From Cliona cf. orientalis (lineage: Eukaryota > Porifera > Demospongiae > Clionaida > Clionaidae), in the NCBI GenBank assembly GCA_963930775.1, contig OZ005701.1, positions 5,711,669-5,775,668 of the forward strand: a stretch of 64,000 nucleotides of DNA. Reading direction: 5' to 3'. Every line of letters starts with the position of its first letter. The first letter of the stretch is position 1. A program made the translations under genes and the position numbers. The notes under the pieces are model-generated. The model searched no databases. It worked only from the letters and a program-made list of their open reading frames with translations, and was not told where the DNA came from. Of the stretch, positions 2,933 through 59,215 are shown in pieces.

Positions 2933-21770
<18,838 letters not shown>

Positions 21771-33216: not shown

Positions 33217-36200
33217 TCACAGATCTATAGCGCTGCTCAAAACAGTTTTTAGTTCAGTTGCTACCTCACCTAGCTTGCTGTCTTTCAAAAGGTCAATCAG
33301 TCCTTGCCATGTGGCAGGGTAGTTCGGAAGAGGATTATCTAACCAAAGGTATAAAACTGCTTGGCAGCATTCATCTGGTTGCTGAGTTTTAAACCGATGC
33401 CAATATTTATCATCAAGGCTCTGTAGCTTAAAATAGGTCAGACCAACTAGCTCTCCGATGATGCGCCACTTGTGGGCGATTTTCTCCGTAAGATAAAACT
33501 GCTGTACTTTTCCACTTTCATCTTTCCACTTAATGCCATTCAGGTGCCTTAATTTGATATAACCTGGATACATAATAAATATAATTGAAGCAACATAATA
33601 CTGCTGCACCACATCAATGCTATACTAACAGCTAGCTGACATACGTAGTAGCTATTCACCACAACAACAACATGCAGCAATGTTGACATCAATTTAAATA
33701 ATAAATATATATATACCTTTGGGCAAATCTGCTGAAAGCGAGGCACGACCAGTACTTTGCTCTGCTTTGTGTTTGATGAGTGCTTGAGAATAAGAGCCAG
33801 GGTCTAGAGATCTAGAGTGTCTTGGAGATGGAGAAAATTCCAATCGTGAATAACCTATGAAATTTATATGTGCATGTGCATACCAGCATGTGTTCATAGT
33901 ACTATATAGTACGCAGCTATTGATACACGTGTGTGGCTTTACTCCTATGGTTTCTTCTTATCACAAGTCTAGCTCACTGAACGATGTCTCTTTATTGGTT
34001 CTCTGCCAAGGCGTCGAAACAGAGTGACCTTCCTGATCCCAGTGGACCGCTATCAGCATCGATTAACCCTGCTACGATCAAGGAAACCCATGATGCTAGC
34101 GTTACCGTATACTGCATGTAAGTGCTAGTGCTACCAGCTGTGCATGCACGCAATCTGCCGCAGCAAGCATATGAAATTAAAAAATATGAAAATTTACTAG
34201 TTTCAAGGGTGTTTTGGTCAATCATACGAAAATTAGCACCAAATTAGCACTCTATACGGTAGCTATGTACCACATTCCCAGTACATCAGGAGCTTTGATC
34301 CCGGGTGTGGATAAAAATTTAGTGTGGGGGTACACTTGGACCTTACCTCTGTTTTTCAGGCAGGAAAGAGTGTACCCCTATACACTCTTCCTACCCATAG
34401 TTAGATTAAAGAAGCAATAAAGAGTGCGGGGGTACACTCTTTCCTGCCTATACTATACTCAGGTAACAAAGAGTGCGGGGGCACACTCTTTCCTGCTTAC
34501 TATATTCAGGCAGGAAAGAGTGCAGGGGTACACTCTTTCCTGCCCATAGTTAAATTAAGAGGGCAGCAAAGAGTGCAGGGGTACACTTTTTATCCCCACA
34601 CTCTTTCCTCATGCAGGAATTCAAAAGATTAGCTCACACACACTCTTTGCTGCCCATTTAACTATGGGCAGGAAAGCGTGTACCCCCACACTCTTTGTTG
34701 CCTGAGTATAATCGGCAGGAAAGAGTGAGTGTACCCTCGCACTCTTTGTTGCCTGAGTATAGTGGGCAGAAAAGAGTGTACCCCTACACTCCTTGCTGCC
34801 CCTTTAATCTAACTATGGGCAGGAAAGAGTGAAAAATGGAGGCAAGCCTTAAGGTCCAAGTGTACCCCACACTAAATCAAGACTATGCCTGCCTCCGTTT
34901 AATACGCAGGAAAGAGTGTGGGGATACACTCTTTCCTGTCCATTAGAATGGGCGTGGTCATCTAAAGAGTGTAAAAGTGTACACATCCTTTGATCCCTAT
35001 GAGGCTACAGAATTGTCTAGGCAAGTATATATAGCTGAGCTAGTCAGGGGCTGGGTAATAGCTACTCAGGAGCATTAAGGACTGTCCATACTTGATAAAC
35101 ATCAGTTAGCTTGTAAATGGCTCATTTGTGGTAACCACACCCGCCAGCGCAGCGCACTCCACTAATTTTTGCATTATGTCTATGTGGGTTAAAGGTCAAT
35201 TGCTCTGCTGACTCAGCAGAAATGGTTCTTGCAATGAAGAAAGACAGTGTCTGGAGAGGTGGTCAGGAAAATGGTACTTTTACGTTGCCTTGAGAGTGTA
35301 GAGAGGTTAACCGTGATGTAAATACCTGATCTGCCGGATTGCTTCTAAAATAATCCATGCTACTATTTATGAGCGTGTATAGTCCGTACCTACACTAGTC
35401 ATAACCATGTTTTTGCTACCTTTCTATGCTAGCTATTAAAAAGCAATCCGATGAAAAGTTAGTATAGCTTGTTGAGAGAGTATAGATGCTGTTAAGGCTG
35501 GCTCACAATGCATGCAAGTAGACCGCCTCCTCAAGAGTACCTCGCCAGAGCACATTCGTTTTGGAAGCCACCAAAGTGTCCGTGATGTCATTCGGAGGTG
35601 TGGTCACCATATTTGTGTAGTGTAAGGCTAGTAGTTCATATTGGTATTTTTACTTTATTTATATGTCATTCATAAGTGGAGATATCAACATCTAAAGTTA
35701 CCCTACATTTATGTGCATTTTACTCTTCCCAGTCCTTAATGCACCTGAGTAGCCTCGTACCGCGCCTGGCTAAGTAATAGCTAGCTTGGACTGTTCCTAG
35801 CCTAGCTATTATAGAAATTGCTCTTTCTAGACTCCCGGCACCGGTACCTAAGATTTATACTTGAAGTACCAGCAATGTATTATATAGCTTTAGATCTTAG
35901 TTGTAACAAATAGTTTAATCTCATTGATCCAAACTAGGCAGGGGTTTATCTGCATAGAGCCCAGCAGGGTGTGTTTCCCTCCCAAGAGGTTCTGTTTCCC
36001 CCCCCCCCCCCTAAAAATTTAATTAAAACCTGGACTAATTATGTTGAAGTGTTACTTAGGTGCCTTTATGGGAACATTAATATTAATTTATGCTTTAGCT
36101 TCCCGCGCTTCGCGCGGGAGGGGGCACATCCCCCTCCCATACCCACCCCCTTGGGCCGCCAAGGCGGCCGATTACTTCAACTTCTCCCATGTTTCCCCCC

Positions 36201-39200
36201 CCCCTAAATTTTTGGGCCAGATAAAACCCTGCTAGGACTCATAGAACCCTTGTAAATCTTCATAGAACCCTTGTAAATCCTCATAGAATCCTTGTAAAAA
36301 CTGCATGTCTGCCATGACGGTTCGAAATTTGTTACTATGTAGCTATGGCCTTGAGCCTTGCTCAGGTAAGAAACTACACTACGTATACAGAGGCTTACAT
36401 AGCTACACACTGCTTGCCTTGTCCTCACAGCACAGTGATAGCTGGCACAATAAGCACACTTGATGATCGATGGGAGTGGTAATCTGAGTTCAAAAGTTCA
36501 ATAGCTGTCATAGCACTTGTACCAACGTTGACAAAACCTCGAAGATGACGGTATTTCACTCGATTTATGACTTGTCACTAGTATTGCAAAGACGTTTTCA
36601 GCTTGTTGCTAGGATCTACATACGTTAGACCGTGGTTACTAGGTTTCCACGTGATTTAGAAGCCCTCAGGCACTCCGTAGAACCCTCGCTTCGCTCGGGT
36701 TCTACATGAGTCCCTTCGGTCTTCTAAATAATCATGTAGAAACCTAGTAACCACGGTCTAACTATTATATAGATCCCAGCCCCTATTAGCATGAGATGGC
36801 TAGTGAGGCTAGTAGCGGGGGGTTGGGTTCCAATAATCGGTTGGTTACGAGGGGTTTGGGTTTTGGGGACGGTTGGTGACAAGGGTTAGTAATATAGTGG
36901 TAAGGTGTATAAATTTGGCAAAAAATGGCCTCCAGTAGCGGTGAGCTGGGTTGGCTGAGGGAGCTAGGGCTTGGGCTGGCGGTACAGTGGTCATGGGTTT
37001 GAATTCCGCTTGATCTGTAAATTTTTCTTTCTCTCACTTTCGAAAAATTTCTAAGTTTTTTGGCAGGCTAGTTGCCGGTAGTCGAAGCGCAAAATTTCCA
37101 GTACTGGTACCAGGACTGTAGCTAGACACAGCCTACAGAAATTAGATCATACCCAGACTATGGCCTTGTTGGTTGCAGAAACTTTTCTTGTGTAATAATG
37201 CTTTACCTTTGCTTGTTTTTTAGCCATCTACTTGAGCTGCATCTTTTGGTGAGCTATATTTAGAGTTAGCGCGGCCAAAGTTGACGATCTTTACTTCAAT
37301 GATTATGCGCATGTACTATGAGCTAGCGAAAACGTGGACAACGTATCACTACGTCTATGTCTACATACACATAACATACTATTACATACATAAGTATAGC
37401 GATTTTATCGTAGTACCATAGTTAATCGAATACAACGTATGATCCAATCTAACGTAAGAAATTAGCACTTTACGAATTCTCATGACGTGTATATATGGAG
37501 CGATTGACGACCTTTACCAGAAAAACAAGTGTTTTTCAGAAAATTTAATTATTTTTTTCCATACGTAGTATTAGATTAAGTACGATACTGATTAGTGTGG
37601 GGCTCGTTCAGGCACTAATTTCTTGCATGGACTGTGCAAAACTAAGCAATAAATGGGGACTTACATTCAGTGACCTGCAGCAGCTCGATTCGTGAGCAGA
37701 CATGGTCCAAGTGGACATCATGGAGGTCACTGAGTAGATTCTGATTTTGGTTTCATGCACTCTCAAATGTTGCGAAGGGGACTATGAGCAAGCTAACGAC
37801 CTTTTGGACTGTTAATGTGCTCAAACAGAATCGATGCCATAAATGCTCTAAAATGTCAAAGGGCGGTCACAAATTCAACCACTTTTGCTAATCTATAAAG
37901 TTGCAATTACACTAGCACTCTGGCCTGAGGCTGTGCACCCTTAGAAAGAGTAGTGGCACAGTACCTGTGCAACTGTGGGCCTTATCATATAGGCAAGACC
38001 ACTCTACTTGTACATGCAGTTCTACTTATACTATCCCCTACTTTTGTGGGGTCCCAGGCTAAATGCCAAAATACAACAATCACGTGTAGCAGGGGGCGAG
38101 CAAAGCAAGCTCCCTGATTGTATATAAAAACATTTATAGCACAAGGCTATCCACGGATTATGTCAGCCAAGAGAACATGTGCATGAAGTTCAGCCAGCGG
38201 TACTTGTTGGAGAAAGTAGCACTCAGCTTTTAATGTTTTCGTACATGTATCAGATACTCTATATTATACCGTATAGCCGGAAATTTGGCTGTTTGGTGGT
38301 CTATATCACAACCGCCAAATTAAAATCCGCCAAAGTTTCCTACTTACATATATATGTATGGCGATCCCGTACCGAACCGCCAAATTTAAATCTGCCAATA
38401 TTCCTTGCATTAGCGATTTTGGGCTCAACCACCAAATTTAATTCCCGCCAATATTTCTGGCTATACGGTACCTATCAATTTTCAAATCTCAGAAAGGCTC
38501 CATGGAGACCCTGAATTTTCTGACAATTACCTCTAGATTATACATCATGACTACTTCATAATTGCAGAAATGTAAATTGCTACTGGGGATGTAATAATGA
38601 TTTTTATGCTAACCTGCACTACTCCGCCATACTTTTTGTTCGATGGGCTTTCGGGAATAAGAGCTGAGCCCTAGTGAGCTCGAGGAGTATGGAGGGGATG
38701 GTGATCGTCTCAATTCCAATTGCATGGGATCACTGATGAGTACTATAATGATAATTGTGTGCATATAGTAGTATGTGTATGTATGAGAACTATTATAGTA
38801 GGATACAACAATAAGACATTTAAAGGATCTGGCCGCTGCATCTCAGAGTCTTGCATTGTTCCGTAGTGACCAAGAAATATGGAAAAAATTGGCTAACCTG
38901 CTGTACTCTGCCCTGCTCTTTTGATGAGCTGGAAAGAAGAGTTGTCCTTCAGTGAGGGGTCTGGAGATAACCTAGATCGTTGTGGATCGCCAAAGAGTCC
39001 TATTGTGTGCATATAATTATATCAGTAGCTGAGAATTCTATGGCTTATTTAGTAGTGACTGACCTATACTAGTATACAGAATCATTATGCTAACCTTCTG
39101 TACTACGCCCTGCTTTGTGTTTGATGGGCTCTTGTTTGGAATAAGAGCTGAGTGGCTCCTGGAATACTGACTGTCTCAAGCTCCATGGAGCACCGACAAA

Positions 39201-42200
39201 ACCTAATTATTAGTGTGTGCATATACAGTATGTGCGAATATTAACAGTAACTGTTATCTACTGATACACAAGCAAGGGGCTGATCTGACAATGTGTGGCT
39301 TCATTCCTATAATATTATGCTCTTTTCTGCTGACTCAGGTCAGTGATTATAATATTATATCTTCAAAGGTGAAATAAATTTGTCACAGTTATAACTACCA
39401 TTGTGCATTTTTACATAATAGATGAAACATGAAGGTGTGGATGGTGATGAAATATGTGTTAATTGCATAGACTTATAATGCTGAGATAGGCAACTTTGGC
39501 AACGATTATCATGACCTGGTAGATGCATATTATAATAATTATGCCAGACTAGAAGCTGTCAGTTAATTGATAAATTTACACCTATTTAATACATGCAGAA
39601 GGAGTATATTTCTTGCATGCCTCATCAGTTACCTCTACTAAAAATGTCATAGTATTATGCTAACCTGCACTCCTTCCAGTCTTGTGCTTGAAGAACTTTT
39701 GGGAATAAGAGCTGTAGGGGGCTACAAGTGATGGTTTGAATTGTCGATCATCAGGGCGTCCTATAGATAAGTGTGTATGTGTGCATTAATTAATAACTAC
39801 TGATATACAAGCAGGGGCTGATTTGATGAGTAGTATGCTATTAATGCTCTCTTTTGCTGACTCAGATCAGCAATCATACATTTAGCTAGGGGAGAAAGAA
39901 CTTTGTCACAACTTTGTCAATGCTTGTGCATTAACATATGATAGCTAAATGATACTATATGGCGGGTAACTTTTGTTCGTGCTAATTTTCAAAGTCCGAA
40001 AAGGTCCTCAAAATTTTCGTGGTTTTAAATTTCGTGATAGCAACCAGTCCAGGGGCGTGGCACTGCACAAGCGATAATGTAATTGATACAAGCAGTCAAT
40101 CTCACTCACGATCTTCTTTGTTACTAAAAAATACCTACAGAGACTTGGACAAACAGCACGAGATAAAAGAATATTAGTGTCGAAGATGCTATCAGCTGGA
40201 TGACAGTGGCTACTGTTGCTTGCTAACACTGGGAAGTGTTGGCTGTGCTGTCACGATGTTTGTGGCCACGCCGATCATTATGGACTCGCATAACCATATC
40301 ACTGTAGGCATTAGTTTTCGTGGGTGGAAAAATTTCATGACTGCCAAGTCAACCACGAAAATTAGCACCCCAAGAAAACTATCATAATATAACTTCTTCA
40401 AACATAATATTATTACCGTATTACCTCTAATTTAACGGACACCAGAAAAATAATTATTTTGGCCAATGTCCGCTATAGCTACATGTAAAAGTACAAAATT
40501 TTACCTCCTGTGGAAGAGGATAAAATTATTGGTGGTCCAGCACCTGCTTCTGTCATTGCGCTGACACTGAAGGTGTAAGTGGTGTACGGCCTTAAGTCAG
40601 ACACTTCATAAGAGATAGCATTTCCATCCATCACTGGAATCTCTCGTGTAGAGTCAGGTCCCTTAACATGTACTGTGTAGCCAGTGATAGTGTCATTTTG
40701 TTTATCCTCTGGTACAGGAGCCCAGTAGAGCTGTGCTGTAGTTGGGAGACTGTGACCGACAATTAACTCTCCAGGAGCACCAGATGGAACTGTAAATTGA
40801 CAGAAGAAGAGGCCTGGGTGGCTAAACTGTTATATCACATTGTAATACAGCTGACCCCAATATGTATACTATAGGAGAGGATAATTCATATTAAATTTTT
40901 ATCTTAAAGTCATATAGTCTTCATCATATATTATCACATTTAATTGACACTGATTATGCTTCAAATTTCTGTCTAGCTCTCCCTCCTCCCAAACTATTGT
41001 ATGGCATATATACTGTTTGTGGATACAGTAACGTTACAAATGGTAGCTACAATATCATAATTGGGGCGAGCCTGAGTGAGCCCCACATAAATGGGAATGA
41101 ACTGCATGAATGATTTATATATGGTGTGTCGGTCCTAGGTTATGCCCCGCCGAACGTCCATCATTCCGTATACCGTACGTACTCGCTTTAATTATCCGAA
41201 CGGCCAAAAATAATTATTAATATTACCGTTCGGTGTTAAATAGAAAGTAAATAAATTCGGGCAATGGTTTGTTCAAATGTAAATAGAACGGATCCGGTGC
41301 AAATGGAGAAAGCACTATTATAGCGATGAAGAAACAGCAGTCGATGTCCAACTATAGGTTTATCGTTGTCAGCTCTAGAGTTCTCAGTATCGCTGTGCTC
41401 TCAGGAGCGATTACAAAATGATCGCCGTCTGTGTCTGTGTTACCTTTCTGCTCTTATATGCTGTCCAAGATGTGGTAGCCACACTCTTCGATGAACGTGG
41501 AAGAATTGTCTCGAGCTCCTACCATGCCGTACGAGAGTGGATGAGAAAACTTGAAATTCAAGATGTTCGACGAATTAGGAAGGAAATAAATTACTTAAAC
41601 TTACCGTTCGGGCTATTAGAATGTTCGAATAATTAGAGCGAGTACGGTAATATAATTATGCTCCTCTAATTCAGTGACTTGCAAATTAATTTTACATTCA
41701 TGACATTGTGTGCTAGGTTATCACTATGAATGCTGAACGAGCACAAATAAGCAAGAAGCTCAGAACTAAGGCTCCAGAGGGTAGGATGCAAGAGTGTGAC
41801 AGAGTTTGTCGTCAATCGAAGCCTCGGCTTAACAGCAGCGAACAATAAGAGATAGAAGTAGCCACAGAGTTGGTAGAATTAAGAGAGAGAGGCCAGGGTA
41901 TGAGCATGCATCCTGCAGCCCATAGTTTATAGTTGGGCGTGGCACACTGTTGCACACTCATTGTCGCTCAGGCTCACCCCACAATGCAGTGCATTTCCCT
42001 AGTATAGCTATGTATAATTGGGGTGAGACTGAGCGAGCCCCACATATGAACTGTGCGAATAAGAAAATATATATATAATATTAATATTACGTATATATTA
42101 TGGTACGTTGGTCCTTGGTTATGGCATTCCAACACTGACAAAATTGGCAAGCTCAAATATATGGTCAAACTTGAGTCAGATATATGGTCAAACTCAAATA

Positions 42201-45200: not shown

Positions 45201-48200
45201 CCAAAATAGAAGTATTGAGTAAAACAGGGGGCTCGCTCCGCTCGCCCCCTAGTTATATTATTATACCTTTATTTTTCATTTTTGTTAGTATATGTCCAAA
45301 AGTGGCTTCATCTTTTTTGAGTACATCAAGGAATGTTGCAAAGTTCTCTGAGCTATAACAAACTTTAGCAGTGACCATGTTAATAAGTTCTGCTGCTCTG
45401 ATGTCAGCATCAATGCTAGTCTCCAATGACTTTCTCTGGTCCTCTGTAATGAGTCTAGCTTTCTCTAAGTCTGTAGCAAGCCAAATAATCTTTGTGTCAT
45501 CAATTAAGGCATCTTCTAAACTTGATGCATATTCCAACATCATCCTGTACTGTGCTGTACATGTATTTTTACCACTTGTAGCTGTGAAAAAGGATTTCCA
45601 AACATATGGTGTTGCATCAGAAGAGTCACTCAGAAGGTCCGATTCGAGACTCATAAGGGAGTAATGAGCTATATATGCATAGGTGTGTGTATTGCATGAA
45701 CATAGCACTGTATTATAGACATACTAGGGCATCCTAAAAGGGTTGTGCATGCACATTGGTAATGATCACAAAGCATTGAACTCTTACCTCTTTGAGGTGT
45801 GGTACCTGCAACTGTCACAGCACTGACACTGAAGAAGTATTGAGTAGAGGGCCTCAACTTTAATATATCAACATAAGTGTTAATTCTTCTTGGAATCACT
45901 TGTGTAGAATCAGGTCCTTCTACCTGAACACTGTAGCCAGTAACAACTTTCTCATCTCCTTTCCAGGAAATCTGTGCTGATGTTGGGTGATATGGGCTCG
46001 TTTTAAATCTACCAATAGTGCTGAAGAGAGCTGTGTGCATGTGCACGGAAAAATAATTACATGCCCAGTAAAAATTTATTTTTCTGTGGTTATGAGGTAA
46101 TTATGGTGTAATCTATGAAGCAATTACGAGAAAATTTAGGGCCTCTATATGGAGCCTTTCTGAGACTTAAAAATCCGTATATATGTAGAGTATCTAACAC
46201 ATGTATCCAGTGAATATATTGCAATTAAGCTGAGTGCTAATTTCGAATACTCTGACAAGTGCCGCCGGCTGAACTTTACGCGTTCTAGTGGCTGACATAA
46301 TCCCGTGAATAAATAAAACTAGCCTTGCGATATATATAGCATGCACGCTGTGTGCCATGCCATGACCAACCCGATGTTCAGAAACTGTATGGCGCTGTCG
46401 AGTTCGTCGCCTGTGATTGAAAATTATCAGTATCGAGGTCAAGAGTCAGTCTCAGACTCCATCTCTGCGATTGAGGCACCGACATCGATGTGGCTTAGAC
46501 TGTGTACGCACTATATTCACCATATGAACCATTATGCAGCTACTGGGAATGTGGTCAATTTTTTTTATAAAAGTAGAATTTGAGGTTCGAATAATATTAT
46601 AAGCCTCCCACCACACCATGCACGCCATCAATGTTGAAGCAATAGTATGCATTAATCACGCCTTACCTTCTTGAGGCATGACAAAGGATACACTGATTGC
46701 AGGTCCACTACCTGCTACTGTCATAGCACTGACACTGAAAGAGTACTCAGTAGAGGGCTTCAAGTCACACACTTCTTTAGAAGTGTCTGAATCTCCCGTA
46801 AGAGACCGTGGTCTACGTATATGTGTATGGTCAGAGACTGTGGTAGCTACATGTATTTGAATGTTTCTTGTAGTGTTAGGTCCTTCTACTTGCATACTGT
46901 AGCCAGTGATTTCTCCATTCTGCTGATCCTTTGGCACAGCACCCCAGGAAAGCTGTACTGATGTTGGGAGAGAGCACCCGACAGTCAACCACTTAGGAGA
47001 CCCGGAGGGAGCTATAGTGTGTGCCCGTGTATGCAGTTAGTGAGTGACAATTATAGGGAAAGCAGCATAGCTTATATGTATACTGCTATTTCCACCAGAC
47101 AACATACTCATACACAAAGTAACTGTCAGTGACGGCTCACCCCTTTGACAATTTACATGTCATCCTATTTAAAGTGCAGAACCTCACCTCCTTGAGGTGT
47201 GGCAGAAGAAATGCTTTTTGCTAGTCCAGTGCCTATTTTAGTTATAGCACTGACACTAAAAGTGTAAGTGGTATACGGCTTTAAGTTAGACACTTCATAA
47301 CAGGTAGCATTTCCATCCATCACTGGAAATCCAATCTTTTTCTCTTTTAATTTAGAGTAGGAGTAGGGTCCCTCAACCTGTACTATGTAGCCAGTGATGG
47401 TACCATTTTGCTTATCCTCTGGTACAGGAGTCCAGGAGAGCTGTGCTGAAGTCGGGAGACTGTGACTGACTTTTAATTCACCAGGAGCATCAGATACTGC
47501 ATGCATATGCATATGCATAATAATCATTGGTAGAGTGGGTAAGGTGGACTTTATACCTTTCATGGCACTGACTTCAAAAGTGTATTGAGTAGAGGGTGAT
47601 AAGTCAGATATCTCAACAGAAGTGCTGAGCTTATTTCCTATTGGAATCTCTCGTGTAGAATCAGGTCCTTCTACCTGTACTGTGTAGCCAATGACATCGT
47701 CCTCCCGTACAATTGCCCAGGAAATCTGCACTGACGTTGATTGACATTGGCTGATTTTAAGACTACCAATAGTAGTACTGGGAAGAGCTGTGTGTGTATG
47801 TACATGTATGTGTAAATAAAAGGACATTGGAATACAGTGGAAACCCGCTTAATGGATACCCCCTCAACTGCGAACACCTGCGATATAATGAATAATTCTG
47901 AATATCTGGATTATGTCTCCATTGACTTCAATGCTTTCCAACCCCTCAACAGTGGACACCCCACTACTCTGTATGGCGGACACTTTACTCAGTATCACTG
48001 CCCATACCTTATAGCAAACACTTTGGCGACAAAATTCATAGACTTGCTTGTAAAACAAATAGCAAGAGGCTAGCTATAGTGCTACAACTGCTAATCTCTG
48101 CGCATTAGCAAGCGTTTGTGTAGCTGCCATGCATGTGCTTCACTTAATATGAGGTCATGGGTCACATTACCGTAGACTCTGGTTAAGGCCACGCAAACTA

Positions 48201-51200
48201 AATTCGCTGTTTATCGTCACCACTTTTTCCAATTTCCATGCGGGCGAGCGGTCATTATTCATTATTCATTGTCCATTTTCTTTGTCATTGCGAGCCACGC
48301 CCCTCACTCAAGGGGCGTGGTTTACCATTAACAGCAATGCTAAGGTTAAAGGTCACGCGTGCTCGTTGTATTTCATTGAGGACAGCGAGTCTAAGGCAAG
48401 TTTTCTACTTGTTAGCAGTGGCGTGTCCAGGATTTGAAGGAGGGAGGTGCTAAGCCAATTGCGCGCAAAGCGCGCGCGCAAAATTTTAAGCCACGCCCCA
48501 AAAAACGTTGACCACGCCCCTCGCTAACGCGTTCTTGAAGATAGCTGGCTGACAAAGAAGGCTGTTTTGGCCAAGTAGCGACAAGAAAGAGTTGTTTAGA
48601 GAGCGAATTGTAGAGGCCAGTAAGTTTATTGTTGGTTCTGGCTACCAATTGTCGATTATCAGCATAAATAGTTGCCACTGAGCTACTGATCTGGCTGTTG
48701 TTCCAGAGCTGAGGGGGGTGCTCGAGCACCCTGAGCCCCCCCTTGGACACGCCACTGGTTAGTGTGTCATTAGAAGGGAAACAAACGCTTTGGACGTGCT
48801 ATGCATAATATATGTCGAACGTTTGAAGGTTTTGTGCAGTGTTCATGTGATCAATAATGAATAATGAAAATTTTTCTGGATCTTCAAAATAGCATGCGGG
48901 CCGTGACGCTTAACAGTGAATTTAGTTTGTGTGGCCTAATAAGCGCATGCGCTTATAGCGATAAACGGAATGACAGTATGCGCTTAATAAAGGATATGCG
49001 CTTATATGGCACATAACCACGCCCACAAACGTTTGGGCACGTGATGGATGCAAGGTCCGCTAGTGCTAGCGCTAGCACTAGCGCTCGATTGATGGAGTAC
49101 TTTAGCGTTTACAGTTTTTCTTGCTTCTTAAGGGTGCATCACCACCGCCCACGCACATTTTTGGAGCAGTTGCTAGGGGTTATATCTCAGAAACTATGGC
49201 AGCTACTTGAATGAAACAAGGACCAGTCTGGAGTCACCATGGAACTTAGTCTATAAGCCAATCCCAAGGGCTTAAAGTAAAACGGGGGTAATGTTATAGA
49301 TCCTGCTAGCTACAACCTTCAAATCGATAAAACTTACCTTGTGTTCACTTATAGAAGCTCAAATTTTTGTTACATGCATATCTCAACAAGGGCAATCCAT
49401 TAACGGAGAGCTTTTGCCAGCGTGGTACTGATAAGTTGGATTTTTCATACATGACATCATCGTTTTGGTAAATTGGATGAACATAATTGGGAAAACTCTC
49501 CGTTACGGTCTAGAGCATGCTACTGGGAATCTTCATTCCAACTTTGGTCCAATTCTGATGAACACAGACCTAGTTTTACAAATTTATACGGTCTATGAGG
49601 GAAAGCTGCTGATAAATGCATGTTAGAACGTAAATTATTGCAATTACACGTCAGTACCGTTCCGACCCCGCCCCTTTTTACAAGCATTGCATGCTAGAGC
49701 TTGCACCGCGTGCTACAGCAAGGAGGAATCTTTTGTGATGGTGGGTGGCTTTCAGAAAAGCCGGTTTAGTTGGTGGTATTGAAGAGGAGCGGAGAAAGCG
49801 ATCCCAGTGCCAGAGAACCGTCGGAGAGCGTTCCAAGCTGCAAAAGGACAACCATACGGTACGGACGCCGCCAGCGCTAACGCTTAGGTTTGATGATCTC
49901 GCCGAGTTTGTCACGCAGTGGCTTGCTCCTGACGCCGCTATCCAGAAGGGCCTTGCTAAACTCCTCGCTGTCTTTGGAAGAGGACCTGAGATCATGTAGA
50001 GCTGCAAACGACAGCCCCAACTCGTTCAAGCGTTTAGCTTGAGCGTTGGTCACTCGCTTGCCGAGTGAACTGAGGAGCTGCGTGACTCGAGTGTGAGTGT
50101 TCTTCTGGGTAGCCCAAGCACCCAATTGTTGAGCTGGAGATCTGACTGGTAGCGTGGTTAGCAAACTACAAGTTCAGTCTTCACCAGAATTTTCTCCATG
50201 GCCTCAACATCGGCTAGTGCTCGATGAGCTGGATAGGTGAGTCAACCGTGTATAAATACATCTATGCTTGTATAATATTATTATAAATACACTATACCTG
50301 GGTACTCATCTTTCTCAAAAAAGTGACGAAAGAGGTCCTCGAGACCAAATTTGGTCACCGACTTGAGTGCACCGTGTCCATCCTTCTTAGCCTGCACATG
50401 TACATGTTTATAAATCATGGTAAATTATTTACGGAAATCTTACTTGTTTCAGGTGTCCCAGCGTATCTGAAAAGTGGATCCTATGAAATGGTAATTGGGA
50501 GAGTGCAAGCTTCTCGGGCCGTCGTTCGATCTCAGCCAACAGTATTGGGAAATCAAAGCGATACCCATTATGAGCAACAAGAACTGTATGTAGATGTATT
50601 CATTTCACAAGTCGGATCGTGTGTGCATCAAATTTTCTGACAAACCAGGATAGTGATCGCTATCAGATGCCTCGTTGTACTCCTGTGTCGTGATATGGAT
50701 CCACTTCAAAAACTCAGGTAGGACCTCTGACAATGGCTTCTCTTGCCGTAAGAGGGCAGCTGTGATAACTGTCTTATCAGATACTACATGCATGCGCACA
50801 GTTGATGCACAAACATGTACATAATATAATATTGTGTTCAATATGTATGTGTGATTGCTTACCTTTCTTTGAAATGGTTCTGCTTGTCTTCACTAGGCTT
50901 GAGAAGGTCGGTTGGCTGAATGATGACAGAGGCACACCTACTACCTTGGCAGCGATCTCTGTGATGTGCTCACAGTAGATGCTGAAGCCAGTTGTCTCAC
51001 AATCATAAAATATCAGCAAAGGATTGGCATCGTCACTGCTACCCACGCTGGTATCTTCACACTCATGATGGTCATCAACAACTGGTTCAGCATCTTCATC
51101 ACCCCCGTCCTTGGTTTCAGTGCGCTCTGTCTCCCCCTGCCCATTGCCAACGTACTCCCCAACAGTAGCTCCAGCACATCGAAGCTGCTGCATGTAATCC

Positions 51201-54200
51201 TTCTCCTTCTCATGCCTAGTGGTCTTGGCTTTTTTCGTGATGTTTCTGTACGCATACATGTACATTTGTATATTATTGGGATACATGTTTATTGCACACT
51301 ATACCGCTTATGCAGGTATGATCTCCCTGACCGCCTCTTTCTTCTCTTCTCCCACTCTTCTTGTTCGGCTAAGATGTTGAGAGCTGCGGACGAAGGAACA
51401 TCAACCCCCATGTTTGCCAAGCATAGCAGCTTCCAGATTGGACCAAGATTCTACAATCATAATACACAATGTATGTATAAATTAAATTGTATCGCAATAC
51501 CTCACCTTGTGACAAACTGCCATATTTGTCTTGCAAACATAGTGGGTGTGCCCGAGATCTGTCCTCTTGTCACGATACATTAGTGCCAGTCCATGAAAAC
51601 CCTCGACAGTGTTTGTCGTCATGCGGCCACCGAGAGAGACGTAGTCTTGAGGGCGTGCAGCCATGTTCTCCAGGATCTCACGGAACTTCTTAGCCTGTGC
51701 CTCACAGGTAAACCTGTGCTTTGACCTGTAGGGCTGACCATTGACCTCCTAAAAACACCACCCATAAAATTGATGCACTTCATTTGGAACATTTGCAGAC
51801 CTTGTCATGATGGCACCACTCAGAACTGTGGTCATCCAGGCAGTAGTGGCTGTAGAAGTTCATGATGGCCGAAGAGAACACGGTGAAAGGGTCATCACTC
51901 TCTCTGATCTTGTCGGAGGACAACAGGTTGCTCAGCGCAGCTTTGCAACTAGAGAGAAAGGCATCATCCATCCTCTTGCAGCGAGGTTGACCCTTGGGAC
52001 ACTTTTATTGGCAGATGGTGTGCATGTAAGTTGAAAATATCATACATTGTAATACCACATAGGTACATGTACTTACCGTGCATTTTGTTGGTTTTATGTT
52101 CTGCAGCTCTTTGTGGAGTGTCTTTGCTGAGTGGTTGGAGCAGTAGGTGATCGAGCCTTCTGGAAAATGGTTGCAGAAGATAGCATTTCCAGAGGAGTCC
52201 TTGTCCGTGACTATCTCCTTGACGATGAAGCCTTCTGCCTTCACCTTTTCCAGAAGCTCATCGAACATATTTCCTTCTGCTCCATTGGACGTCCCCTCCC
52301 AGTTGTGTCCATTCCCCCGCTTGGTCCAGTGGGTGAACCAGGCTACATTTCCAGTGGAGTAGTCATGAAGTGTGCCAGAAGAATTGTTGGAGTAGTGCCC
52401 TCGTGTCAGGTAGAAACCATCGTAGGATGCAACCCACTGTTGGTGGTCTCCACGTTCACGTATCTGCCTGCGTACCTGCTCACAAGACCACTCTGCCAAC
52501 TCTGTCACATGCTTCTCTGTCCACTCCACGATTCGCAGCCACTGGTTCTTGGAACACGACTGTATGCCGAGCATGTTAGACACTCTCTCATACTCGGCAA
52601 ACAACTGACCGTTCATCATGAACGATAGAGCTGAATAGTTTTTCGTCCAGGACTTGCCAGGTGATGACCTGATAGTGGGAGGCTCTGAACCGGGTGGCAC
52701 TCTCGTGCAGAGCTCTGGAAAACACTGGACAAGAGAGCTTTTGCATTAGGAAAATTGTGTATTGCTCTAGGAACATTCCATCAATAATTGCCCGCGTTTA
52801 TTTTTGTGCAGGTACCCGTTGATGACGTCACAACGTATGGGTCGATCATGCCAATTTATTGCTAGCTAGCTAGCTATATAGCTAGTATAGTATATAGCGC
52901 TGTACTGTGCATGCTCGAGGCTGGAGAGACTCATGTCACAATCAAGGCTGAGAAAGAGACCAGCGGTGAACTACCTGGATGATTTATGATTATCTAGGGT
53001 CCGAAGAACAAAAATAAAAGCTGCACCACCAGATCGTCTTTACCCGTTACGAGTTGTGGACGAAGATGAAGTACGAGAGCTGGTTAAAGTTCACTATGAG
53101 GGCTACTCTACAAGCTATGACGAATGGAGAGCAAAAGACGACATCGTAGACTTACACTCTGGTGATGAAACTGGCCATGGAGATGGTGATACGTTCGGTG
53201 AGAACATGCTGGCTCACTAATCAGTCATTTAATCTCTATCGCGAGCTAGTAGTGGGGATTAAGGCTTCCCTCACCAGTGGCCGAAAGAAAAGCCCCCAAA
53301 TCAGACTAAGAATGCCTTTTGACAGGCTAATATTCGATGGTGGATTAAAGGCCAGAGCAGTGGAAGCAGGAGGAGGGAAGTATACCATCAAGCAGTACCA
53401 AGATCTACAAGATATCTTGGGAGAAGGATGGTATTACAGAGGACTCAATGAACATGGAGATTTCTGCTTTGTCATACTCCGATCGATACGCTTCCACCTA
53501 TACCAAAGACGACCTATTGCTGATTATCAACCCTTAAAGGAGGGTGACGAAGTGTGTACAAAAACAGTACACCACCCAGGCTACATGCTTGCCTTTGATT
53601 TTGTCCGAGGTGATGGCACAAGAGAAGATTTTCATCACCATGATCATGGTGTTTTTTTGCCACCAGACGACTAGCTGCTAGTGTATGGTAGCTACTATGT
53701 ATATCAATTTTTATTATAGATTCATTATTATGACATTAAACCACGTTGAATAATAATATAATACACAAAGTAGCTAATATTATTACAGGTGAGAGTGTGC
53801 ATGAGAGAGAGAGTGGAAGCAAACAACTGAGTTGTGTATGTACATGTAGCTACTTGGTATGGTGTGTTGCAGTTTGTAGCTATTAATCTGTGGTATACTG
53901 ACTCTAGCAGTGATAACAAAAAATTAATATTCAAATAAGCGGCTATGGAAACCGCAATGCAGAGAGCTCCAAAGTAATGCACTGTATAATGTCCAATTTT
54001 ACACAACTTTGTCCTTTCCGGAATTTAACATCCTGGATATCAATATGAAGGGGAGACCCTACTTATTAAAATGTGACCCGCACTGAACGCGACCGGGCAT
54101 TCCACAAGCTGATGATGTCATTGCAAGTTGACACACCCCCTCATGTCAATAGTGCCAGTGTAATAATCGAAGATCGACGATTTTACACAGCTTATCCGCC

Positions 54201-57200
54201 GCTTTGGCCGAACCTCCTCGCTGCCAAAGCTTTTTTAGTCCTTATACTCTTCTTTTCAGGCCGTACTGAATCGGATTATCTCTGAGAGTCTCCGTTCTGA
54301 AAGAAAAGGTAGATTTTTAGCGGTCAATACGGGTAGCGCAATCTATTTTTTATCGCGAAATGTCCCCCCAATTGTCATAATGGAAAGCGCAGTCGAAACC
54401 CAAGCATCGTACCGCCTGAACAACCTTTGCGTTGATGTCGGCAAGTGATTGTGATGCTGTGTCGTGACTAACGCTCTCTAAAACTGGACCAGGTTGTGTG
54501 TGTGGCAGCTCACCCAAGTCATTGCCTTGAACATCTACAGCAGGTGCAGCTGTGCTCATGGGGTTCTCTGGCTCTGGTTGCTGTTCTGTCTCCAGCTCCA
54601 TAGGAGGTAGATACAAACCTTCCATGCCATCAAGAGTGGCAGGGACTATCAAGGCAGAGTAAATACTATATCATTTTTATGTGCTATCATTTTGCATACA
54701 TGCAGTTATGCAATTATTATTATTGTTGTCACTGTTTTATGCTTCTTGTAGTACAGTTAGTTTAGTATTTACCTGCAGGTCTGTTACCATCTGCTGGAAG
54801 GTCATAGGGTTTCCATCTATTGACTGAAGCCCTTTGTGTGCGTCTTTTCCCCTTGGACTGTGGCATGGTGGTTCTGCAGCTGGCTCACTCTTACCGCGCT
54901 CTCATTTGTACTGTTTACTACGCGCACGCGCGTGCAGTGAAAATAGTCATGAATATCATTATTAGCTTGCGAATAGTCATGAATATCATTATTAGCTTGC
55001 GGTTTGTGCTACATGCTGCGGTTTGTAGTCTTGTAATTGTACATTCCTGCATATTGTAATGGTTGCTATGGGAAGCACCCTTAATAATAGCAAAGGATAC
55101 ACAATAGCCAGAAGTATATGTTAAGAAATGCTAAGCTAAGGCTAATCAAGTGTGCACCCTGGTACATAAACACGGTGACAGAAAGGAATATATAAAAACA
55201 GGTATAGCTAAACATAATAGTTTGAAAGTCAAGTTGAGCTGCTTTTAAGAGCCAGCTTAAATGACTGGAGACTTGGGGGTAAGTACTAGGTCCTCCTCTA
55301 GCGAGTTCCAAGCTCTGATGCTACTGGGGACAAATGAATTATAATAATAGTTAGTTCGTGCAAAGGGACAGTGCAGAGTTTGTGCCCTGGCCAGTCTGCT
55401 TGCTGCTCAAGATGACGAATGCTGGCGATTTGTCGATCTTCTTGCATGATAACGTTATTCGTGGCCATCATTTCTCCAAAGATACCTGACTCCAAATACT
55501 TTCCAGCCGGTCAAGATCAGGTTCATAGAACACCACGCCTACTAAGCGCATGCGCTTAATAAACAATAGCTTATGACAAGAAGAGGGCATGCGCTTAATA
55601 ATAAATGTGCGCTTAATAGCAAGGTGCGCTTAATAACCAGAGTTTACGGTATATCATCAGTTATAGCAGTAAGCTACACCCATCATACTTCAATAATCAC
55701 TAAAAAAAAAAAGGACACATCACTTATCGGGCCACTTTACTGAGTCCATAAGGTGGCCAGTTTCACTGTATACTAGCATTAAAGAACGTTCCATTTACAT
55801 TTAGGCAGCATTAAAGCTTACCTTGCTGAGGAGTGACAAAGGACACACTAATTGCAGGTCCACTACCTGCTACTGTCTTAGCACTGACACTGAAGGTGTA
55901 CTCAGTAGACGGTCTCAAGTCACACACTTCCTCAGAATTGTATGCATCTTCCGTATGGCCAGTGACTGTGGTAGCTATTTGAACGTTTCTTGTAGTGTTA
56001 GGTCCTTCTACTTGCATGCTGTAGCCAGTGATTTCTCCATTCTGTTGATCCTCTGGCACAGCACTCCAGGAAAGTTGCACTGATGTTGGATGACCGCACC
56101 TGACAGTTAACCACTCAGGAGACCCAGAGGGAGCTATATGCATGTGTGTGCATGCAATTAGGAAACGCAATAGAGTATATATACAATGCATAGCTACACC
56201 ATTAGTAGTACAGATTATGCACTGATGATAGCTACTTCCACTAAACAACATACTGTATTACCTCTAATTTAACGGACACCACAAAAAATAATTATTTTGC
56301 CCAATGTCCACTATAATTAGAGCACACGAAAATAGCCGGCGTTCGAAGTGTCCGATGAATTAGAACACGCTTTCACGCATGCGCATTCTGTCAAATGGAC
56401 GTGCAATCGAGCAGCTGCAGAGATTGAGAAAATGATACGGTACCTGGAGCTCCCTGTTCATGGTGGGAAAGAGAACAACTCACCTCCTTCAGTACCACCA
56501 AACAAGCAGCTGTCCATTGCAAATTTTGCTCGATCAGTACCATGCTAACACGAGCTGTCCAGCGATGTCCGGATAATTAGAACAACAAAAACTCAAACTT
56601 CATTGACTGTCTGGTGTAATTAGAGGTAAAAAATAATTCGAAATGGTGTCCGGATAATTAGAGATGTCCATTAAATTAGAGACAATACTGTACTCACTGA
56701 TAAGCTAACGGCAAGTGAAGGTTCATCCCTGAGGGATTTACACCACGTTATAATATATATATAATTTTAAAACCTCACCTCCTTGAGGTGTGCTAGAAGA
56801 AACGCTTTTTGCTAGTCCAATGCCTACTTTGGTTACAGCACTGATACTAAAAGTATAAGTGGTATATGGCTTTAAATCAGACACTTCACAAGCGGTAGCA
56901 TTTCCATCCATCACTGGAATCTCTTGTATAGAGTCAGGTCCCTCAATCTGTACTGTGTAGCCAGTGATGGTGTCATTCTGTTTATCCTCTGGTATAGGAG
57001 TCCAGGAAAGCTGTGCTGAAGTTGGGCGACTGTGACTGACTTTTAATTCACCAGGAGCATCAGATACTGTATGCATGTGCATAATAATTATTGTTAATTT
57101 TTGGTAGAGTGGGTGAGGTGGACTTCTTACTTTTCATGGCCCTGACTTCAAAGGTGTATTGAGTTGAGGGTGATAAATCAGACACTCTAACAGAAGTGCT

Positions 57201-59215
57201 GCGATTATTTCTTATTGGAATCTCTCGTGTAGAATCAGGTCTTTCTACTTGTACTGCGTAGCCAATGACAAGGTCCTCCCGCATGGCTTCCCAGGAAATC
57301 CACGCTGAATTTGGATGATATTGGCTGGTTTTAAACCTACCAACAGCATTGGAGAGAGCTATGTATGTGTATGCACATATATCATATGCATGCATATAGA
57401 ATTGATGTTGGAATGTACTAATAATTGTTGAGATAATGCATGGTATGCATTGAAGCCTCACCTTCTTGCGGAGTGACATAGAATACACTAATTGCAGGTC
57501 CACTACCTGCTATTGTCTTAGCACTGACACTGAAAGTATATTCAGTAGAGGGTTTTAAGTCAGACACTTCCTTATAAGTTGGATATCCTCCATTTGCTGG
57601 AATGCTTGCTGTTGTGTCAGGTCCTTCTACTTGTATGCTGTAGCCAGTTATAATTCCATTCTGCTGATCCTCTGGTACAGCACCCCAGAAGAGTCGTACT
57701 GATGTTGGATCGTTACACCTGACAGTCAACCACTCAGGAGATCCACAGGGAGCTATCACGGAGTGTATGAGTGTGAGTGCATGTAATGATGCACAGAGAG
57801 AGGAGAGTACTATTCAGGGTTTTAGGTTTACCTGCATAGAGCCCAGCAGGGTATATGTATTTCCTCCCCAAGAAGTTCTGTTCCCCCCCCCCCCCCCCCC
57901 CCCCCCAGAGGAGGCACGTACATCCCCCTCCCGCATCCATCTCCATTAGTCCAGCTGTACCTCCCTATAAATCCCTGCTACTATAGTAAGCCTTACCACC
58001 TTGAGGAGTAATGAATAAGGTTCTTTTATGTGGTCCAGTACCATCTACTGTCATGGCACTGACACTAAACAAGTAGGAAGTATTGGGTCTTAAGTCAGAC
58101 ACTTCAGTAGAAGTGGTAGCGGCACCGGCTATTGAAATTTCTCGTGCAAACTCTGGTCCTGCAACCTGTACTATGTAGCCAGTGATTGTGTCATCCTCTG
58201 GTACAGGAGTCCAGAACAGCAGTGCTGAAGTTGGGAGACTGTGACTGACAAGTAAATATCCTGGTGTACCAGATGGAACTGTGGATGTGTGTTTGCTTGA
58301 AGGTTTGGGCACATCAGCACTGCACTTCGTTATGTCTTCCACCTATAATTATGTGTACACAGTGCTATTATTAATTTTATACTCATAAGAAAGGTGTACC
58401 TGGTTTATTTCAAATCTTGAATCTTGTTGTACAAAGAGTATCATACCCTTCCTTCTCAGTAAAGCAATCTTCTCCTTTGGTAGGGGGAATAAATCTTGTG
58501 CAATGGAATCTGAAACTGAAAACACAAGTATTATGCTACCCTTGTCAATTCGGTGGAGATGAAGGGTAGCTGGTGAGACACCAAGGACATCTGCAAGCTT
58601 CTTTTTGATTCTCATAGCATCTCCAAGGTTTTGTAATGCTTCTTCACCCATTGGTAAAACTACAGCAAACAGTTTCCTTCCTTTCAATAGGGTAAGGCGT
58701 TGCCCACAAGTACAACGGCCTGGTTCAACTTCAAAAACTTTCCGCTTACAAAATTCCTTAAACTCTTTAGAATAATCAGCTAGATGATCTGTATCATCTT
58801 TATCACCTAATACGTTAATTATCTTTGCCAAAGTTTCATGATTGAAGAATGACATTTCTGGAGCAAGATCTGTAAACACTCGATCAACAGATGTTGAATC
58901 TATTAACTTATCACGTAAAGAGGGGTTGGAAGTGACAGCCACTCTCACTAACTTGTCAACTGTTACTCCTTGCTGTATTAGAGAATCACAAGTTGCATTT
59001 GATAGATCAGTAAATCTATCCATAATTTTTGTGGTATCCTTTTCAAGTATGTAATTCAAATCTTCTTGATCCGCTTTACTAAGAGTGGTCATTCCAAGGT
59101 AAGGAATACATGATTTAGGACAACCATCTTGAAGATAAGTTTCTAATGAGCATTCACCACAGGGACATTGAAATTGTATGTCGGATTCACTTTCCTTTAC
59201 TTCACAGTCAGTCAT
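33217..59215 (-). CDS. FN3-repeat protein with CARD-like and C-terminal Death domains, 18 exons
   Basis: The 18 exons join in frame to 1671 residues. Domain order: Cys-containing N-terminal module of unknown function (aa 1-272, PCGECSLETYLQDGCPKS near the start, LHRIDKGSIILVFSVSD near the end); FN3 repeats 1-9 (about 290-1137, each with W, GY.VQVEGP and L.P.T.Y.F.VSA); a six-helix CARD-like domain (1137-1271, ending IRAAELINMV..., F.TFLDVLKK); FN3-10 (1271-1366); five short related linker exons (1366-1557); and a Death domain (about 1560-1671, WRIIGELVGL, DECCQAVLYLWL, ATWQGLIDLL). No signal peptide or membrane helix is seen, so it is probably cytosolic. Death and CARD domains recruit partners in apoptosis and innate immune signalling, so a scaffold or sensor role is inferred. 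The start is ATG 59215 in good context (accATGa), 22 bases after a splice acceptor, so a 5' UTR exon is expected upstream. All exon boundaries after the first FN3 are phase 1. Two adjacent genes remain possible. Confidence 0.8.
33984..34137 (+). CDS. Possible first coding exon, partial
   Basis: The frame opens MSLYWFSAKASKQSDLPD and runs to a good donor (GCAT/GTAAGT at 34138). The bulk composition looks coding, and the opening resembles N-termini I associate with transposase-like genes in lower animals. No second exon is found: the next sequence is the hairpin satellite. It is antisense to the host gene and may be a truncated transposon 5' end. Confidence 0.3.
34305..34960. repeat. Satellite of nested hairpins (GCAGGAAAGAGTG units)
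   Basis: About a dozen copies of ggcaggaaagagtg and its complement cactctttcctgcc alternate, each pair enclosing a short 'tacccccaca'-type centre. The outer flanks are also inverted: the segment at about 34309-34355 reappears reversed at about 34853-34885. The result is palindromes within one large palindrome. No protein. Confidence 0.85.
35934..36236. mobile_element. Non-autonomous element, CTAGCAGGGTTTTATC-type ends (family B)
   Basis: The left end ctaggcaggggtttatctg and right end cagataaaaccctgctagg are inverted. C runs lie near both ends. Shares internal text ('catagagcccagcagggt') with 57830-57860. Confidence 0.75.
36612..36776. repeat. Long palindrome
   Basis: Arms of about 50 bases (36612-36662 and 36721-36776), with a 19-base perfect core around 'accgtggttactaggtt'. 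The centre contains a second small hairpin (gaaccctcgcttcgctcgggttc). Confidence 0.85.
37430..37575. repeat. Second copy of MITE family A
   Basis: Reverse-oriented relative of 9520-9720, sharing the 'aacgtaagaaatta', 'ggagcgattgacgacctttacc' and 'ccatacgta' blocks. Confidence 0.6.
38267..38470. repeat. MITE with TACCGTATAGCC ends
   Basis: The left taccgtatagccggaaattt and right atttctggctatacggta are inverted. The interior has four variants of 'ccgccaaatt'. 204 bp, in an intron next to the linker exon at 38614-38742. Confidence 0.8.
41171..41649. mobile_element. TIR element with TACCGTAC..ACTCGCTTTAATTAT ends
   Basis: The left taccgtacgtactcgctttaattatccgaacgg pairs with the right ccgttcgggc...ataattagagcgagtacggta. 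The two arms are related over about 40 bases. The interior carries a plus-strand 72-codon frame (41418-41636; WMRKLEIQDVRRIRKEINYL) that I do not recognise and that runs into the right arm. Confidence 0.7.
42108..43393. mobile_element. Foldback element with about 500-bp arms and TATGGTCAAA repeats
   Basis: The left arm (about 42108-42640) and right arm (about 42894-43393) are inverted copies with only scattered differences. Each arm carries about eleven spaced copies of atatggtcaaa or close variants. The 250-base centre itself holds a 41-bp-arm palindrome (42743-42833). The open frames in the arms (Tyr-Gly-Gln repeats) follow from the repeat and are not evidence of a protein. Confidence 0.9.
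42743..42833. repeat. Central palindrome of the foldback element
   Basis: Arms 42743-42783 and 42793-42833 pair with a few mismatches. The cores cagaccgctcccactgcagc and gctgcggtgggagcggtctg differ at one position. Confidence 0.9.
44709..45063. repeat. MITE-like element with accgtagaaact ends
   Basis: The left end (taccgtagaaactagttgttaagcgcat) pairs imperfectly with the right end (gcatgcacttaaccagtttctatgca). 'ttaagcgcata' is repeated inside and recurs at about 48935-49000 and 55540-55640. Confidence 0.55.
48416..48757. mobile_element. Non-autonomous transposon, CAGTGGCGTGTCCA ends, 5-bp TSD
   Basis: The ends cagtggcgtgtccagg and cttggacacgccactg are inverted. GTTAG flanks both sides (48411-48415 and 48758-48762). 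342 bp. Confidence 0.85.
49877..52700 (-). CDS. Transposase-like protein with C-terminal DEDDh exonuclease, probably decayed
   Basis: Exons in coding order: about 52700-52077, 52001-51801, 51748-51506, 51450-51305, 51245-50863, 50783-50646, 50583-50444, 50391-50298, 50228-50158. The first part has a DDE-type arrangement: ASYDGFYLTRG, VTDKDSSGNAIF and TNTVEGFHGLAL, the last resembling the Glu motif of Mutator-like transposases. A Lys/Glu-rich linker follows, then a DEDDh 3'-5' exonuclease: FYDCETTGF (ExoI), VAHNGYRFDFPIL (ExoII), AHRALADVEAM (ExoIII with His). A stop at 50158 ends the exonuclease frame, but a coding-looking tail (LGKRVTNAQAKRLNELGL) continues in another frame to 49877, so a frameshift near 50160 is likely. 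The N-terminus above 52600 is also uncertain because two frames overlap. It lies inside an intron of the FN3 gene, on the same strand. Confidence 0.65.
52933..53674 (+). pseudogene. Chromo-barrel/Tudor-knot-like protein, broken ORF
   Basis: It starts MSQSRLRKRPAVNYLDDL and meets an in-frame TGA (52987-52989). The same frame continues with a chromo-barrel-like segment (LVKVHYEGYSTSYDEW, about 53085-53135) until a stop at 53218. A frameshift near 53210 leads to the rest (from SFNLYRELVVGIKAS) ending at 53674 with a domain I do not recognise (WYYRGLNEHGDFCFVIL; HPGYMLAFDFVRGDG). It is head-to-head with the transposase-like gene, with about 160 bases between them. It may be the second gene of that transposon, or a captured host reader domain. 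Confidence 0.5.
54350..54866 (-). CDS. Small two-exon gene of unknown function (129 aa)
   Basis: Exon 1 is 54866-54773 and exon 2 is 54645-54350. They join in phase 1, giving 130 codons with the stop. The N-terminus is basic (MPQSKGKRRTQRASVNRWK), the middle acidic and Pro-rich (MELETEQQPEPENP), and the tail reads RCLGFDCAFHYDNWG. The ATG context is good (ccaccATGcc). About 90-160 bases upstream is a tandem duplication of 'gaatagtcatgaatatcattattagcttgcg' next to GC-rich palindromic DNA (acgcgcacgcgcgtgc), possibly its promoter. No domain recognised; it may be the first exons of a transposon gene. Confidence 0.4.
55270..55500 (-). pseudogene. 3' remnant of a non-LTR retrotransposon
   Basis: The minus strand encodes ARTNYYYNSFVPSSIRAWNS followed by LEEDL: the motif near the end of CR1/Jockey-type reverse transcriptase ORFs. 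The intact element at 63176-64000 has HNSFFPRTIAQWNTLP at the same place. The frame is open only briefly. Confidence 0.55.
56252..56693. mobile_element. TIR element with TTACCTCTAATTTAACGGACA ends
   Basis: The left end (tactgtattacctctaatttaacggacacc) and right end (gatgtccattaaattagagacaatactgta) are inverted. A related left end is at 40418-40480. The plus strand has a 66-codon frame (MSDELEHAFTHAHSVKW) of unknown meaning. It lies in the intron between FN3-4 and FN3-5. Confidence 0.65.
57820..57980. repeat. Family-B element remnant with long C run
   Basis: Shares 'gcatagagcccagcagggt' and the 'cccaagaagttctgttcccc' context with 35934-36236. A C run of about 24 bases lies at 57882-57906. It is in the intron between FN3-1 and FN3-2. 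Confidence 0.6.

Follow-up and report, generated by a model that had tools for sequence, protein, structure and literature searches.

A minus-strand gene joining DED-like, TRADD-N, FN3, CARD-like and Death domains, and the repeat unit of its family

The subject of this work is a gene on the minus strand of a 64,000-nucleotide stretch (C13:5711669-5775668, the window) of a 216.8-Mb genome in 149 contigs, whose exons encode a DED-like domain, TRADD-N, ten FN3 domains, a CARD-like domain and a C-terminal Death domain. The closest described proteins are those of the TRADD-N expansion of the sponge Amphimedon, of which the main text of PMC8195603 reports 357, mostly with one to three Death-like domains, TRADD-N and variable C-termini (ankyrins, SH3-LRR, kinases or caspases). 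In the NCOA6-clade expansion of Amphimedon, an N-terminal Death-like unit is followed by TRADD-N and a variable C-terminus, and the expansion is large and lineage-specific. The same is observed here, with a Death domain and a weakly supported DED-like domain at the N-terminus of the window gene and TRADD-N after them, whereas the C-terminus consists of FN3 arrays, interleaved CARDs and a terminal Death domain. The words FN3, FNIII and fibronectin do not occur in the main text of that paper, whose figures or supplements may hold an FN3 case. An earlier note on this DNA had suggested an architecture not known to it from other animals. Because its order parallels that of the Amphimedon proteins, we regard it rather as a variant of the TRADD-N expansions and, by this analogy, the predicted protein is an FN3 version of the sponge proteins with Death-like domains, TRADD-N and a variable C-terminus (PMC8195603).

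Three other systems share part of this composition. The HEPN-immunoglobulin-DED-TRADD-N proteins of Crassostrea gigas also combine β-sandwich repeats with DED-TRADD-N, but there the immunoglobulin (Ig) repeats precede DED-TRADD-N, and the section on these proteins describes no CARD/FN3 repeat unit (PMC8195603). The sponge NLRs (NACHT-LRR proteins with Death or CARD), as presented in the sections consulted of PMC12909245, are likewise expanded immune genes with Death or CARD signalling ends, whereas the window protein gave no NACHT or LRR match at E ≤ 0.1; one relative (L048, see below) does join the same N-terminal unit to NACHT. In Dysidea avara, a "gene containing Ig domains and a CARD domain" is listed with a log fold change (LogFC) of 10.5 at 1 h with microbial patterns (PMC6208332, Table 5); it combines a β-sandwich with CARD as here, but with Ig instead of FN3, and the likeness is one of description.

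The receptors NOD2, RIG-I and MDA5 resemble relatives of the window gene in having more than one CARD in a cytosolic protein. Their CARDs are two in number and adjacent, in contrast to the three CARDs (or four, one of them broken) of the relatives, which are spaced by FN3 triplets. No description of FN3, CARD and Death in one protein was found in the parts of the literature searched.

Gene structure and domain identities

The minus-strand exons form a single open frame of the order [DED-like + TRADD-N]-FN3(9)-CARD-FN3-Death. With splice sites set by the junctions conserved in paralogs and by phase, the window holds 13 exons (1480 residues counted from the ATG at 59215), and a Death exon beyond the window edge brings the gene to 14 exons and 1600 residues, so that the full order is Death, DED-like, TRADD-N, three FN3abc triplets, CARD, FN3a and Death. 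The 18 exons and 1671 residues given previously are thus replaced, while the in-frame joining stands: the 1600 codons are free of stops and AG/GT sites flank 13 of 13 introns. Twelve of these introns are in phase 1, and the one after the TRADD-N exon is in phase 0. A few sites are ambiguous; among them is the TRADD-N exon acceptor, where the score favours an in-phase site 12 bases upstream (four more residues). Our confidence in this anatomy, as modelled, is high. The features are as follows:

58400..59223, minus strand: internal exon with cysteine motif, DED-like helical domain and TRADD-N; acceptor TTCCAG (or in-phase TTTAG at 59235, four more residues), donor AACCAG/GT, phase 0
57997..58342, minus strand: exon with short linker and FN3 no. 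1 (type a), from fn3 profile, splice sites and typing
57462..57752, minus strand: exon, FN3 no. 2 (type b)
57131..57358, minus strand: exon, FN3 no. 3 (type c)
56779..57066, minus strand: exon, FN3 no. 4 (type a)
55822..56133, minus strand: exon, FN3 no. 5 (type b)
47557..47787, minus strand: exon, FN3 no. 6 (type c)
47188..47496, minus strand: exon, FN3 no. 7 (type a)
46667..47011, minus strand: exon, FN3 no. 8 (type b)
45788..46030, minus strand: exon, FN3 no. 9 (type c), immediately 5' of the CARD as in paralogs A-E
45267..45668, minus strand: exon, CARD-like domain of the internal-CARD subclass
40505..40789, minus strand: exon, FN3 no. 10 (type a), apparently all that remains, as its first FN3, of a terminal a-b-c-CARD unit
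33217..33563, minus strand: last exon, C-terminal Death domain and stop codon
60474..60520, minus strand: intron remnant, a block that paralogs have directly behind the donor of their first (Death) exon; marks the site of the presumed ~17.7-kb insertion
47788..55821, unstranded: intron, outside the protein, that holds an RNase_T-like frame (50777-51298) and, at 52005-52745, a fragment of a Mutator-like transposase

The five additional exons implied by the count of the earlier note, taken as linker exons between FN3-10 and Death, were rejected because the region from CARD to Death holds no conserved coding block in paralogs A, B, C and D.

The start proposed at 59215 could not be kept either. 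Among 20 copies of the exon examined, the window's included, the ATG is absent at that position in 17 (it is found only in L031/L032 and in L029, which is the window's own copy), and a TTCCAG acceptor directly precedes the position in 16. Farther upstream, the paralogs have a conserved block of ~400 bp that encodes a Death domain, mostly begins with MA(K/Q/R) and ends at a donor (13 stretches translated, three of them clipped by the locus edge). A match to this first exon lies within ~4 kb upstream in 18 of the 19 other TRADD-N exon copies, the exception being L048. Since most copies lack the ATG and have an acceptor there and a Death exon upstream, we conclude that a start at 59215 is not supported and that the gene begins outside the window. 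Neither tblastn nor the profile detected a first Death exon within the window, and the exon of this gene was located at C13:5789919-5790269, on the same strand and ~14 kb past the window edge (16.3 bits; 78% identity to the query and 85% to the exon of gene A). All nine aligned members of the first-exon family (alignment A6, nine of 107 genomic matches) match Death (E ≤ 0.5, best 4.5e-6), and eight of the nine begin with MA(Q/K/R).

The resulting first intron measures ~19 kb and is rich in transposable elements. Downstream of the GTAAGT of the gene's own first exon the sequence is unlike that of the paralogs, and the block at 60474-60520 is best matched by L037, L038 and L041, with 75-83% identity over 41-61 bases. 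The ~17.7-kb interval holds a 935-codon endonuclease/reverse-transcriptase-like frame (LINE-like, long interspersed element; labels by eye) and many repeats. The simplest reading of the separation of the first exon would be an insertion of ~17.7 kb in the first intron.

The ten FN3 exons reported before (58342 to 40505, minus strand) were recovered, as Pfam fn3 gives 10 stretches totalling 400 bits on the 1600-residue protein. The other domains were assigned with exon-family alignments, in which copies of the window exon from the genome itself were replaced by the window row: A1 (DED/TRADD-N, 18 sequences chosen from 31 listed), A2 (CARD-like, 21 of 22, one overlapping duplicate dropped) and A3 (last Death, 21 of 21). 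The genome queries and structure models for CARD and TRADD-N overran the donors by ~4 and 13 residues, respectively, and the 13-residue tail of the TRADD-N model has a predicted local distance difference test score (pLDDT) below 50.

The helical exon 45668-45267 is CARD-like, as had been proposed. Of the 21 sequences in its family, 6 match CARD PF00619 at E ≤ 1, the best of them with 7.3e-4. The window exon alone gives no match and does not reach the curated cut-off, which is passed by two relatives (C6:9345071, 27.7 bits, and C6:9445945, 26.8 bits, against 23.9), these being two of the 49 genomic PF00619 places above cut-off; for this reason we call it CARD-like. With hhalign the family scores 92.3% against six of the 49 above-cut-off CARDs, compared with 0.9% against the Death and 0.5% against the DED/TRADD-N families. 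In the fold test named by the earlier note, a single-sequence structure model shows a predicted six-helix death fold of the CARD type, with CARD structures heading the fold list at weak Foldseek E values.

The C-terminal Death assignment (33563-33217) also holds: PF00531 matches 21 of 21 family members (E ≤ 1, best 2.1e-10) and FADD is the best PDB match (8.8e-7). The window exon scores 18.5 bits alone against a cut-off of 22.6, and 23.2 within the whole 1600-residue protein. As complete exons have a stop codon within a few residues of the domain, this is the last exon of the gene and not the first of the next one.

An N-terminal module had been noticed before, but not its identity. TRADD-N (PF20694), through which classical TRADD binds the MATH domain of TRAF2, matches 7 of the 18 family members (E ≤ 1), and relatives of this exon make up 9 of the 16 above-cut-off PF20694 places in the genome. 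DED is matched weakly, by 2 of the 18 at E ≤ 1 (best 0.0062). A PDB search with the DED/TRADD-N profile gave chance-level matches only (best E 0.088), so that the TRADD-N call is based on the Pfam relatives and on the predicted β-α-β-β-α-β topology; a fold search with the model returns a generic ferredoxin-like list. Residue 227, in the predicted β2-β3 turn, is Ser in 12 and Cys in 6 of the 18 sequences of our own alignment, which is separate from the published figure; a conserved Ser at this turn is described in the main text of PMC8195603. The death-fold domains, of which two had been counted, come to four when the Death exon beyond the window and the DED-like domain, which has weak support, are included. 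At the start of the DED/TRADD-N exon, a cysteine motif (CxCGxC...GCP, 59111-59167) is kept in several distant relatives and absent in others, and could be a small metal-binding knuckle.

The repeat unit, its family and selection

The FN3 domains fall into three types (a, b and c) with large score margins between them. The array of the window gene reads abc abc abc-CARD a Death, that of gene A bcbc-CARD (abc-CARD)x2 Death and that of gene B aa (abc-CARD)x4 Death, with one CARD a fragment. The genes thus carry from one to four CARD copies, one being broken in the fourfold gene. The evolving unit is FN3a-FN3b-FN3c-CARD. In a tree built from the nucleotide sequences of 13 CARDs, those at the last position in A, B and D cluster (0.984), followed by the only CARD of C (0.838). 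The third-position fragment of B joins this group (0.889), contrary to a strict last-position rule, and the window CARD sits among the internal CARDs. Two FN3a domains of the window gene are sisters (0.975), which fits a triplet duplication within this gene, and FN3-10 pairs, with modest support (0.87), with the first FN3 of the last unit of A. Because the lone FN3-10 groups in this way and the CARD groups with internal ones, the last unit of the window gene has apparently lost its b, its c and its terminal CARD. A search of the gene's three large gaps detected no remnant of FN3b, FN3c or CARD (E < 0.1).

Tandem relatives with the same order of parts and a tighter packing lie on the plus strand of the same chromosome, 2.3 Mb away (C13:8.10-8.24 Mb). 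Eight units carry a TRADD-N exon, which has a stop in one of them and a split frame in another; a fragment at 8.090 Mb is left out of this count. The first Death exon is present in all eight (split in two in one of them), CARD in six, the last Death in seven and all four parts in five.

For the ratio of nonsynonymous to synonymous substitutions (dN/dS) we used medians of pairwise Nei-Gojobori (NG86) estimates; pairs are non-independent, and those with dS outside 0.05-1.2 were dropped. The medians are 0.42 for the first Death, 0.45 for DED/TRADD-N, 0.41 for the last Death, 0.43 for FN3a, 0.59 for FN3b, 0.73 for FN3c and 0.80, the highest, for CARD. All seven classes are below 1, as for real coding sequence. 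The exon order in the window is therefore not due to chance, as it recurs in the tandem cluster and every class has dN/dS below 1. The signalling ends and FN3a are conserved, and FN3c and CARD are either relaxed or diversifying, two states that the NG86 test cannot separate. The window exons compared with the others (medians 0.32-0.93 across all exons) are constrained about as much as those of the relatives.

Across the genome, the DED/TRADD-N exon has 137 matches at E ≤ 0.01. Within 1.5 kb downstream, an FN3 match is present in 16 of the 20 best copies, the window's own being counted, and absent in four; three of the 16 matches are weak (≤ 25 bits). One of the four copies without FN3 continues in a single open frame into NACHT (L048:1480-3789, 86 bits) and is NLR-like. 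In L073, a Death-like stretch (21.6 bits, just below cut-off), the DED/TRADD-N unit and FN3 share a single frame, and in L068:1-1824 a COR-A-like region (33.3 bits, cut-off 35.3) precedes the C-terminal Death family, also in one frame. Elsewhere (L027:1129-2100, C1:5.08 Mb), two tandem CARD-like copies stand in a single frame.

Proposed function and alternative readings

The explanation we lean towards, with modest confidence, is a single gene encoding a cytosolic scaffold or sensor that has several death-fold domains and belongs to the TRADD-N immune network of animals. The one-frame fusions L048 (unit and NACHT) and L073 (Death, unit and FN3) support it and, by analogy, so does the TRADD-N parallel described in the main text of PMC8195603. 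The family has arisen by duplication, and its proteins are likely immune. The signalling or immune role suggested previously is favoured, and the CARD and Death domains on an FN3 scaffold are supported. The analysis shows the anatomy of the gene, the identities of its domains, the repeat unit and the pattern of selection, while we infer the cytosolic location, ligand binding and signalling output. The FN3 array may form a stiff rod to which a ligand or partner binds (or which provides spacing); binding or clustering would free the TRADD-N switch, a role adopted from the proposal in the main text of PMC8195603, and gather the CARD and Death domains, which could then nucleate homotypic assemblies with caspases, kinases or adaptors. 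Variation in the family would come from tandem gene duplication and from gain or loss of whole FN3a-FN3b-FN3c-CARD units, with changes in rod length and CARD number; the phase-1 introns (12 of 13) may be cited beside such whole-unit events. A bolder proposal, to which we give some weight but do not on balance subscribe, is that these proteins are a distinct class of cytosolic immune receptors, in which the number of four-domain cassettes sets reach and signalling valency between conserved Death/TRADD-N ends. Such an FN3 rod with a tunable array of CARDs would differ from NLRs, RLRs and tandem-CARD proteins.

That the exons belong to two genes, one for FN3-CARD with its end after 45267 or 40505 and another for Death, is highly improbable. 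The distance from FN3-10 to the Death exon (6.9 kb) and that from CARD to Death in unit E (10.9 kb, with an FN3a in between) would suit it. Against it, 1.1-2.8 kb separate the last CARD from the Death exon in units A, B, C and D, where order is the same and phase matches. Moreover, the last Death exon of the window is 68-77% identical to seven cluster copies, compared with 50-59% to twelve on C8, C9, C16 and C17 and 26% to one on C1. That the cluster relatives share parts and order in a tighter packing argues strongly for one gene, as first proposed. We consider it very unlikely as well that this is an adhesion protein, secreted or at the cell surface, whose signal peptide is encoded by an unseen exon. 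FN3 arrays are commonly extracellular and the true first exon is indeed beyond the window, but that conserved exon encodes a Death domain behind its MA(Q/K/R) start, and death-fold domains are cytosolic. In agreement with the earlier note, no membrane-helix-like stretch was seen (highest 19-residue Kyte-Doolittle mean 1.42, with no dedicated predictor run).

Decay of the window copy deserves more attention, although we judge it improbable: an ancestral (abc-CARD)n gene would have been broken by transposons, leaving an open frame but no full protein. The first intron with its LINE-like frame, the Mutator-like fragment in the 8-kb intron, the traceless absence of the terminal b-c-CARD unit and the stops or split frames of other cluster members (L021, in CARD; 8228054 and 8190201, in TRADD-N; 8218944, in the first Death) are all compatible with it. 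Against it stand the stop-free 1600 codons with their intact splice sites, the constraint on the window exons and the like CARD-FN3a-Death end of the paralog at 8101344, of whose 18958 bases 8383 are not covered. Of comparably low probability is an adaptor or decoy regulator, in which FN3 would be a spacer, and CARD and Death would bridge upstream receptors to caspases or block them. The lack of a nucleotide-binding switch domain such as NACHT and the FADD-like C-terminal Death agree with such a role, as does the high median dN/dS of CARD, which decoys or pathogen-attacked domains could show. Adaptors are usually few and conserved, whereas the many paralogs and the divergence of FN3b and FN3c are more like recognition modules.

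In this family FN3 arrays, usually thought of as extracellular, have been built into probably cytosolic death-fold signalling proteins, and a cassette of three FN3 domains and a CARD multiplies within genes so that CARD number differs between paralogs. If functional, the family would be a natural experiment on the tuning of signalling valency, in an animal that, if a sponge or similar, would lack adaptive immunity. The TRADD-N expansions, a proposed immune system of marine animals according to the main text of PMC8195603, are extended here to an FN3-CARD-Death architecture.

Other features in and near the window

On the plus strand, exons at 8335-21133 resemble a ferlin: they include several frames of C2 type and, near 21 kb, a C-terminal membrane helix. 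Retroelement gag and reverse transcriptase/RNase H-like frames (by eye) occur at 25593-26475 and 32241-32821, also on the plus strand, the second near the last Death exon. Within the gene, the minus-strand Mutator-like fragment (PF20700, 40.5 bits) and the RNase_T-like frame beside it (18.4 bits, below cut-off), together spanning 50777-52745, are possibly one element. At 61001-61218 a 108-bp unit is tandemly duplicated, with 100% matches in the repeat finder. Finally, helicase-like frames (L083; RecQ-like by eye), perhaps transposon-derived, lie on the minus strand in the first intron, at about +68.9 to +70.7 kb in window coordinates.
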